Positions 12,826 through 38,955 of a stretch of 53,770 bases of DNA are shown here, piece after piece. Where the stretch lies: the NCBI GenBank assembly GCA_027034975.1, contig JALVWQ010000016.1:1-53770 (forward strand), given 5' to 3'. This DNA is from Campylobacteraceae bacterium. Lineage in GTDB: Bacteria; Campylobacterota; Campylobacteria; Campylobacterales; Sulfurovaceae. Position numbers and translations under genes: made by a program. The notes below the pieces were generated by a model, which made no database searches, had not been told where the DNA came from, and saw nothing but the letters and a program-made list of their open reading frames with translations. The stretch's first letter is position 1, and each line of letters opens with the position of its first letter.

Positions 12826-12950
12826 TGAAACTTTCATTTTATCTACAGCTAAACTATATAAAAGATAATGAAAGTTTCTCTTGCCAAAGGCAAAGCTTTA
12901 GTGAGAGGAATTTTCAAGGAGCTTTGCTTCTTGAAAAGGAGATTTAATAA
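12826..12950 (+). repeat. GAAACTTTCAT repeat element, copy A, before the M24 peptidase gene
   Basis: Fills the gap between aroQ and the next gene. It contains a perfect 12-bp inverted repeat (12827-12838 with 12868-12879), a 42-base block at 12879-12920 that is 38/42 identical to 38865-38906 read on the other strand, and a hairpin TTTTCAAG / CTTGAAAA (12912-12938) whose base touches the AAGGAG Shine-Dalgarno (12937-12942). A 28-codon frame (ATG at 12869) runs through it and its TGA overlaps the GTG start of the peptidase. Confidence 0.65.
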
Positions 12951-13976
12951 GTGAAATATTATATAGTTTTCCAAAACGAAAATGCACTCTATTATGAGTG
13001 CAACTATAGTTGCGACAATGCGATTTTTTTAAAGCTAGGGAGCAAGAGCTACTTCTTTACCGATAGCAGATATGAGATTGAGGCAAAGAGTAGTGTAAAA
13101 GATGCAGAAGTAGTAATAGTCAGTGATCTTTTGGGAGCATTAATAGATAAGTTAAAAAAATCTAGTGTTAAAAAAGTTGCGATAGATCCGCAAGAGTGGA
13201 ATCTCGATAGTTTTCGAAGATTCAAAGAGTCTCTAACTCTCAAAATTAAGTATAAACCAGCTTTTTCGCATAAAAAACGAATTATTAAGAGTGCACAAGA
13301 GATTAAGTATCTGCAAAAAGCTGTTAATATAGGGAAAGAGTCATTTAAAAAGATAGCTAAAGAGTTAGTAAAAAGAAGAGGTGTAGATGAACAACACTTA
13401 AACTTTTTAGCTGAATCTATTTTGCGAGATTTCGGAAAGAGAGAGTTAAGCTTTGAGCCAATTTTAGCTTTTAGTGAAAATGCTTCGAAACCTCATGCAC
13501 TGCCAACAAAGAGAGTACTCAAGAGTGGCGATTTGGTACTTTTAGATGCTGGGGTAAAGTATAAAAGATACTGCTCCGATAGAACAAGAACAGCCTATTT
13601 TGATGGAGAGACTCTTTCGTTTAAAAAGAAACAGCACTTTTCGAAAAAGAGGATACAAAAGGCGTATGATACTGTCTTAAAAGCTCACGATAGAGCTATT
13701 GCAAAGGCAAGAAGCGGTATGAAGGCAAAAGAGATAGATGAGTTAGCTCGTGATGTTATAGAGAAGGCTGGTTTTGGAGAGTACTTTGTGCACTCTACGG
13801 GGCATGGAGTAGGGTTAGATATTCATGAGATGCCCTATATCTCAAGTAGAAGCGATACCGTTATTGAGGACTCTATGGTCTTTACGGTTGAGCCTGGAAT
13901 CTATATAGAAGATGCTTTTGGGATTCGTATAGAGGATATGGTCGTTATGCGAAACGGCAAAGCAGAAGTTTTGTAG
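12951..13976 (+). CDS. M24-family aminopeptidase (Xaa-Pro type)
   Basis: Metallopeptidase of the pita-bread fold that removes N-terminal residues next to proline; 341 residues. The N-terminal creatinase-like domain (about 1-120) is followed by the catalytic domain with the two-metal ligands in LLDAGVKYKRYCSDRTRT (two Asp), HSTGHGVGLDIHE (His), VEPGIYIE (Glu) and IRIEDMV (Glu). The start is GTG, since no ATG is suitably placed, with AAGGAG upstream. The gene corresponds to pepQ/pepP in aroQ-pepQ-folK-flhF clusters of Campylobacterota. Confidence 0.9.
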   Translation: MKYYIVFQNENALYYECNYSCDNAIFLKLGSKSYFFTDSRYEIEAKSSVKDAEVVIVSDLLGALIDKLKKSSVKKVAIDPQEWNLDSFRRFKESLTLKIKYKPAFSHKKRIIKSAQEIKYLQKAVNIGKESFKKIAKELVKRRGVDEQHLNFLAESILRDFGKRELSFEPILAFSENASKPHALPTKRVLKSGDLVLLDAGVKYKRYCSDRTRTAYFDGETLSFKKKQHFSKKRIQKAYDTVLKAHDRAIAKARSGMKAKEIDELARDVIEKAGFGEYFVHSTGHGVGLDIHEMPYISSRSDTVIEDSMVFTVEPGIYIEDAFGIRIEDMVVMRNGKAEVL

Positions 13977-23950: not shown

Positions 23951-24205
23951 CTATAATTTAGCTTCAAGCTCTGCTATACGCTTTTTTAGTTTCTCTATCT
24001 CTTTTGCAAGATCCTCAATAGTTGGTGCTTTTTTGGGCTCTTTTTTTGTAACAATTTTTGCATCACTTTTAATGAGAATTTTCTCTTTCCCATCTATTAT
24101 CTCTGTTTTTGTCTCAACTTTACCGCTCTTTGCGAGCTTCATAGCGTTAAAGTAGCTTATTTTATTTCGAATCGCATACTCTTTAATCGAAATATACTCT
24201 TGCAT
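23951..24205 (-). CDS. Small HTH protein with C-terminal coiled coil
   Basis: An 84-residue protein. Residues 1-30 (YISIKEYAIRNKISYFNAMKLAKSGKV) look like an excisionase/MerR-type winged helix that recognises DNA, followed by a short basic beta-hairpin (TKTEIIDGKEKILIKSDAKIV) and a leucine-spaced helix (LAKEIEKLKKRIAELEAKL) likely to dimerise. It has a good RBS (AAGGAG). Function unknown; it could regulate metE or nadE or be a leftover of a mobile element. It lies between nadE and metE, same strand. Confidence 0.7.
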   Translation of the reverse strand: MQEYISIKEYAIRNKISYFNAMKLAKSGKVETKTEIIDGKEKILIKSDAKIVTKKEPKKAPTIEDLAKEIEKLKKRIAELEAKL

Positions 24206-24244
24206 CTTGTAATCTCCTTTTTAAGGAAAATTGTTTCTAGTTTC

Positions 24245-24267
24245 TATTTTTGAAACATGAAAGTTTC
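24245..24267 (-). repeat. GAAACTTTCAT repeat element, short copy C
   Basis: Just after the nadE stop, the minus strand reads GAAACTTTCATGTTTC then AAAAATAGA, matching the head of copy B (38929-38955 on the minus strand). The 42-base downstream block of copies A and B is absent, so this is a partial copy. It can form a small TGAAAC / GTTTCA hairpin. It sits upstream of the small HTH gene. Confidence 0.5.
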
Positions 24268-24269
24268 AT

Positions 24270-38236: not shown

Positions 38237-38854
38237 CTAAAAGCCTTTAAGTGCAAGTAGATAGAGTTGCTCAATTGTTGCATCATCTAAAAGAATTGTA
38301 GAGCCGCTTTCAAAAAGATTCATTAAATCTTTTTTTGAAATTGCTGGAGATTTGGCACACTCAGGGTGGGCTGGCAGAAAGCCCTGTATTGGAGCTATGG
38401 ACTTATCAATTTGATTGTTACAGATTACACAGTGGGATGGGGGCTGGAGTCGCCCTTCATATTTTAAAATATTAATTGCAACTTCTACTATTAAACGCTT
38501 AGGGGACTGTTTCTCCCACCGCTTTGCAGCCTCTAAAAGAGTATAGAAATAGAAGCTCTCAACACTCTCGATATCGCGAAAGTGTCGCTCAAATATTGCT
38601 ATAAATTGGTGCCAAAGCATCAGTTTTTCTCTATCGTAAAGCCATGGAAAACCAATATGTGAGAGGCTACGCACTCTTGGTAAAAAGTTTGCCTTATCTT
38701 GTTCTTCTTCAAAGTCGATTAAGTACCCCATTTGTAAGATAGAGTGGCGTGCTCCATAGAATCGGTAGTACTTTTTTACACTTGTAGGGCTTAAGATGGT
38801 AACAATCATATCTTCGTCCCTGGCTCGTTGAAGCTTTAAAATAAACCCTTTCAC
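38237..38854 (-). CDS. recO: DNA repair protein RecO
   Basis: Partner of RecR in loading RecA and annealing strands. The 205 residues have an N-terminal OB-fold (KGFILKLQRARDEDMIVTILSP, FYGARHSILQMGYLIDFE) and a helical C-terminal half with a four-cysteine-like site (CVICNNQ ... HPECAKS). This is the short, divergent RecO of Campylobacterota. The start is GTG: the sequence reads AAGTGAAAGGG with AAGG ten bases upstream. The GTG lies at the end of repeat element B. Confidence 0.85.
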   Translation of the reverse strand: MKGFILKLQRARDEDMIVTILSPTSVKKYYRFYGARHSILQMGYLIDFEEEQDKANFLPRVRSLSHIGFPWLYDREKLMLWHQFIAIFERHFRDIESVESFYFYTLLEAAKRWEKQSPKRLIVEVAINILKYEGRLQPPSHCVICNNQIDKSIAPIQGFLPAHPECAKSPAISKKDLMNLFESGSTILLDDATIEQLYLLALKGF

Positions 38855-38955
38855 TTCAAAAACACCTTGAAAATTCCTTTCATTAAAGCTTTGACTTTAG
38901 CAAGAGCAACTTCATGATTTTCATTTATCTATTTTTTTTGAAATATGAAAGTTTC
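38855..38955 (-). repeat. GAAACTTTCAT repeat element, copy B, before recO
   Basis: On the minus strand this begins GAAACTTTCAT at 38955 and ends at the recO GTG. Its 42-base block (38865-38906) matches 12879-12920 of copy A at 38 of 42 positions. The AAGG at its end serves as the recO ribosome site. The frame matching the copy A leader peptide (VALAKVKALMKGIFK) is open but has no start at the same place and ends in a TGA overlapping the recO GTG. Confidence 0.65.

Follow-up and report, generated by a model that had tools for sequence, protein, structure and literature searches.

Copies of the repeat in the window

The window, that is, the entire 53,770-nt stretch analyzed here, is the whole of contig C16 in a 1.77-Mb genome of 68 contigs. 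Copy A of the repeat (Table 1) lies between aroQ, recognized by a Pfam match (DHquinase_II), and a gene for an M24 peptidase whose closest named relatives are found in Nitratifractor/Campylobacteraceae MAGs, with Sulfurovum next. The old AT(G) of an ancestral TAATGAAA overlap stands just before the 5' arm of its first hairpin, H1. A promoter and terminator scan detected two weak promoter-like sites and no terminator at copy A. None of the 4227 covariance models of Rfam 15 gave a gathering match in the window; the best match at E up to 1 was to a miRNA model, with 18 bits against a cut-off of 90.

Table 1. Features of the repeat copies and the adjoining gene in the window
Feature	Position	Strand	Remark
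Copy A, whole element (H1-type, lacking the 42-nt insert)	12826..12950	+	aroQ stop to M24 peptidase GTG
Copy A, H1 hairpin, 5' arm GAAACTTTCATT	12827..12838	+	
Copy A, H1 hairpin, 3' arm AATGAAAGTTTC	12867..12878	+	
Copy A, P1, outer stem and inner hairpin TTGCC-AAA-GGCAA (12882-12892)	12878..12907	+	
Copy A, P2, 12-bp stem with GC-TTT-GC top	12911..12937	+	
Copy A, GGAG, Shine-Dalgarno-like end of the element	12938..12941	+	9 nt before GTG 12951
M24 peptidase (pepP-like), gene downstream of copy A	12951..13976	+	GTG-AAA start
Copy C, relic, H1 head only	24235..24268	-	
GGAG remnant of the copy C 3' end	24214..24217	-	before ATG at 24205
Copy B, 3' end eroded	38859..38955	-	before recO

A preliminary description of this DNA had proposed a family of three copies in the window. 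Copies A and B are members of such a family, copy C is only a relic, and the genome as a whole contains eight copies plus C (eight by sequence search and also eight by the core model described below). A and B were 87% alike over one 54-nt stretch and 79% alike over their entire match (query 2-100), and the 24-mer CTTGCCAAAGGCAAAGCTTTAGTG, allowing up to 3 mismatches, occurred twice versus 0.00 expected. The head GAAACTTTCAT was found exactly at 12827 (+), 12868 (-), 24257 (-), and 38945 (-), the match at 12868 being the second arm of copy A's own inverted repeat (12827-12838 / 12867-12878). Because A and B precede unrelated genes (M24 peptidase and recO), their likeness is not due to shared ancestry of the two genes. 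Both copies do end at GTG-AAA, as had been described, but the junction falls at different points of the element: P2 and GGAG are retained in A, whereas B is eroded, having lost the 3' half of P2 and GGAGA. The core model matched copy B at 38848-38908 (34.4 bits), and the orthologue of copy B in genome G001 retains AAAAGGAGTTCTTAAG-ATG. Copy C aligned with the initial 34 nt of a complete element (88%, E 1.1e-5); its middle is gone, and its AAAAAGGAGATT end is left before the start of an 84-aa ORF that has no Pfam match.

Structure and covariation of the element

Read towards the gene, the element consists of hairpins H1, P1, and P2, followed by GGAGA and a short tail of some 4-15 A/T-rich bases. 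Elements measure 70-175 nt, with a core of 68 nt, and full copies begin with (A/G)TGAAA. H1 is formed by GAAACTTTCATG, a loop of about 28 nt, and CATGAAAGTTTC; P1 is CTCTYGCC-AAA-GGCRAAGCTTTAGTGAGAG; and P2 is TTTTCAAGGAGC-TTT-GCTTCTTGAAAA in the window's genome. Five of that genome's eight copies, all of them sisters of copy A, carry a 42-nt hairpin inserted in P1; copy A has no such insert. The predicted fold of copy A had an energy of -35 kcal/mol (z -3.2), and that of one full copy reached z -4.9.

Fourteen copies served to build the core model, R1. In P1 and P2, 98.9% of the cells of 14 copies were paired, with double changes at 6 of 20 pairs, and the sequence of P2 differed from copy to copy while its pairing was maintained. 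Across 99 distinct rows, 95.9% of the cells were paired and 17 of the 20 pairs showed double changes, nearly all P2 pairs varying yet remaining paired; this alignment was fitted to the model, and thus leans towards it, and includes a few antisense or partial matches. Its covariation score was 0.559, versus 0.186 after shuffling, and only 47-59% of the cells were paired in slid versions of it. The H1 arms of 22 copies had 0.82 mismatches with their own partners and 2.43 with swapped partners (0 of 2000 permutations), in a set selected at 3 mismatches or fewer, a selection that favors own pairing. All three hairpins covary.

Distribution and insertion sites

Further copies exist beyond the window in the whole-genome search, and the covariance-model search of relatives found the core in many genomes of the family and order, which bears out the proposal of a dispersed family. 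The core model matched many sulfur-oxidizing Campylobacterales: 106 of the 175 genomes in the family, representing 10 of 11 genera, and 125 of the 398 genomes in the order, representing 28 of 87 genera. The number of copies ranged from 8 to 68 per genome in the 14 genomes searched at full depth, which were picked for many copies and include the window's genome, and tandem arrays with a 74-81-nt period occurred. Phages, plasmids, and viral contigs gave no match to the repeat. The family is unnamed in the open-licence literature searched and in Rfam, and as far as these sources go it is undescribed.

The gap between aroQ and the M24 peptidase gene contained the core in none of 80 relatives, two of whose loci carry less than 80 nt upstream; the four matches in the fetched loci lay elsewhere. 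The end of AroQ could be placed in 75 of the 80, and in the closest relatives the stop and start overlap as TAATG (-1 nt). This indicates that copy A landed in a coupled overlap; its left side still has TTAATGAAA, and the right-hand repeat is imperfect (TTAATGAAA versus TTTAATAAGTGAAA). The copy located at C62:71068 has TATGTAATGAAA on either side, and its site was empty in the congeners read. Copy B is also present in the closest congener (G001) and was missing, by eye, from G005, G006, and G007; in G004, a copy of opposite orientation occupies this gap.

The junction of secF with a DUF6394 gene was searched in 78 genomes, and 30 loci were fetched, of which 10 contained the core. In the 23 scored loci, nine sites were filled and 14 empty, requiring at least six changes on the tree, which leaves out seven loci (five with no recognized target site and two with an intermediate gap). 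Clustering of the filled rows did not exceed that obtained on shuffling the labels (as low a value in 78 of 500 shuffles). The end of secF (MRAMYENGTI-stop and more) was present twice in filled loci and once in empty ones. These patchy filled and empty sites and the direct repeats of the target agree with the description of the element as mobile, as does the comparison of orthologous gaps without it, both at the empty aroQ-M24 gap and at the alternating secF sites. The filled and empty states could in part represent losses by recombination between the repeats. The 3' end of secF (L199, L207, L239, and L300-L307) is an insertion hotspot where the secF tail is directly repeated. At L239, the right-hand repeat is followed by part of a second element, a pattern resembling tandem duplication of unit and target together.

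Exact direct repeats of at least 12 nt flanked 15 of 116 copies, versus 0.7 expected. Three of these are tandem element copies, and the 12 host repeats comprise nine at secF, one at a dnaG end (L178, 50 nt), one at a dnaG start, and C62:71068; the clear target repeats derive from few independent sites. Repeat lengths were 10-12 nt at L048 and L002 and 17-52 nt at secF and L178, and overall the shortest target repeats were about 5 nt (TGAAA) and the longest about 50 nt. In secF copies, the bases left of the core were complementary to the upstream target, with a mean of 1.4 mismatches per 12 compared with 4.2 in random windows. Since the target of another genome was nearly as good (1.9 mismatches per 12), it is only suggested that the left end tracks its own target. 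Among all copies, 30 of 116 had a left-end inverted match with at most one mismatch versus 2.6 expected, a count that includes A/T-rich chance pairs and tandem copies.

Position before genes and nature of the element

From 120 extracted rows, four duplicates were dropped, and then five rows with short flanks and one with N bases. An ORF start (ORFs of at least 60 codons) lay 3-11 nt downstream of 65 of 111 copies, compared with 11.4 at random positions from the same loci and with 6 for the divergent side; with the limit widened to 36 nt from the 3' end, the corresponding figures were 82 of 111, 36.5, and 14. The analysis covered the best-scoring copies; weaker ones may be placed differently. 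GGAG was present in 63 of the 65 copies at starts and in 31 of 45 elsewhere (Fisher 5.3e-5). Its presence in the latter indicates that GGAG belongs to the element, and its excess at starts is consistent with selection for a Shine-Dalgarno function. The strong placement before start codons and the preferential retention of GGAG where it could be used support the earlier suggestion that the repeat provides ribosome sites.

In the window's genome, six of the eight copies have an ORF starting 4-7 nt beyond the core; lysine is the second residue of all six ORFs, and four start with GTG. The right-hand start was GTG in 9 of 22 H1-type copies and in 2 of 56 other copies (p 1e-4), and ATG stood on the left-hand side in 19 of the 22. 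On the simplest reading, H1-type elements would carry in a start codon too. The core was also found at RNA genes. In L212 (G036:C184) and L225 (G133:C33), it interrupts the RNase P RNA gene; the entire RNase P RNA is still aligned by Rfam across the inserted core. In L233 (G077:C49) and L243 (G086:C157), the core stops about 7 nt short of ATGGAGAGTTTGATC, the 5' end of 16S rRNA, and would therefore lie in the pre-rRNA leader. Copies in L219, L222, L228, and L240 are antisense at dnaG starts.

The dispersal of the repeat, sites that are empty in some genomes and filled in others, direct repeats at its flanks, covarying stems, placement at starts, and retention of GGAG point to what is probably a small non-autonomous mobile repeat of Campylobacterales with a built-in ribosome-binding site. 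A cis-regulatory RNA, such as an attenuator or a leader of riboswitch type maintained by selection, with mobility merely the way in which it spread, is an improbable alternative. P1 and the loop sequence are conserved and the stems covary; the predicted fold of full copies allows the H1 3' arm to pair alternatively with the P2 5' arm; and GGAG adjoins P2 and is retained at starts. However, the genes downstream of the scanned copies are unrelated (M24 peptidase, recO, SAM methyltransferase, MFS, NQR2/RnfD-like, HI0933 flavoprotein, and PLP enzyme genes), the copies within RNase P RNA, before 16S rRNA (L233), and antisense to dnaG starts do not suit a leader, and copy numbers vary greatly among genomes. 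Switching among H1, P1, and P2 that regulates the downstream gene is possible on the basis of the predicted fold.

That the repeat is a GTAG- or CGTC-class REP or REPIN mobilized by a RAYT (Y1) transposase is very unlikely. Like REP/REPIN and BIME sequences, the repeat is short, palindromic, dispersed in many extragenic copies, non-autonomous, and at times tandem, and both classes occur in Sulfurovum sp. NBC37-1 according to PMC3733652. However, GTAG or CGTC occurred anywhere in only 18 of 110 cores, and neither tag lay in a conserved column. No Y1_Tnp match was found in carriers G001, G023, G030, G037, and G041, and the sole match in the window's genome (C10:120266-120622) has an internal stop (TAA). 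The repeat further differs from REP/REPIN and BIME in lying 5' of genes, in the sense orientation, with a built-in GGAG.

Still less probable is a conserved leader peptide. Copy A is open for about 41 codons, from the old ATG to just before the GTG, but the frame differs among copies, covarying P1 positions change the amino acids in frame, L046 contains a stop, and coding does not account for the stem covariation; we rejected this coding reading. A CsrA target, suggested by several GGA motifs in or beside the hairpins, one of them over the Shine-Dalgarno position in the alignment, is the least credible reading and is refuted as a general explanation, given that the protein is missing from 7 of 18 carriers tested, including G000 (the window's genome), G004, G006, G021, and G030.

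Several families of small repeats resemble the non-autonomous element favored here. Pneumococcal BOX elements are small, intergenic, and folded as RNA, with no transposase gene of their own. The same is stated for enterobacterial ERIC/IRU, Neisseria Correia/NEMIS, and pneumococcal RUP in PMC2229807. The present repeat shares these properties with all four MITE-like families and, as in MITEs, is small, dispersed, and patchy in presence, but its target repeats are long and variable rather than a fixed short duplication, and it has a ribosome-site end. In the two copies tested (A and L008), a search for terminal inverted repeats returned only internal hairpins. Rickettsia palindromic elements, according to the same source (PMC2229807), are found also inside genes and RNA genes. 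They are palindromic like the present repeat, which differs in lying mostly before start codons and in having target direct repeats. In summary of these comparisons, the element behaves like a MITE or a REP but lacks the REP tag, terminal inverted repeats, and a fixed duplication.

A resident Y1 transposase or reverse transcriptase was rejected as the mover, both being missing from carriers; RVT_1 had no match in G000, G006, G030, and G041. Either enzyme may have been a past or foreign supplier. Insertion of the mobile repeat leaves target sequence of about 5 nt to about 50 nt flanking the element. At a start codon, the old start would stay on the left and the element would put GGAG near the right-hand start, and translation of the downstream gene could go on. 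GGAG would act as the ribosome site of downstream genes, and start-codon insertions would survive because it is built in; the copies are presumably mostly selfish DNA tolerated thanks to GGAG. A candidate recombinase or transposase may move copies, with either a folded single strand or DNA derived from a transcript as its substrate; alternatively, copies may be written in by template switching or reverse transcription.

Eukaryotic SINEs are structured and have an A/T-rich 3' tail, variable-length target repeats, and copies lacking the 5' part. The present repeat is alike in all four respects, by analogy only with their target-primed reverse transcription, whereas no reverse transcriptase match (RVT_1) was found in several of its carriers. 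It is a tentative and rather unlikely idea that the family is a bacterial SINE counterpart or another new mode of transposition, in which a folded element with an A/T-rich tail and no resident transposase duplicates 5-50 nt of target, leaves an inverted target copy at its left end, and owes its survival to a 3' end that is a ready translation start (GGAG; often GTG-AAA in the H1 type). With long, variable target repeats and no evident transposase, the mode of movement becomes a testable question.

Small mobile repeats frequently damage or silence the genes they precede. Because this repeat carries its own putative ribosome-binding site, insertion at a start codon, even in an operon of overlapping genes, can leave the gene readable. 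This suggests a simple route from a selfish repeat to the leader of dozens of genes, and for annotators the repeat would account for GTG start codons and unusual gaps in genomes of the Sulfurovum type. Among the copy clusters, L292 was the one with ORFs listed, and no mobilizing gene was recognized there; in L293-L299 the search covered repeat positions only. L292 (G378:C20:242500-249000) contains at least four strong copies, some in tandem (81-nt period), located before and between successive ordinary genes (hemN-, argF-, hemB-, and ribA-like by eye), and its genome has 68 copies in all.
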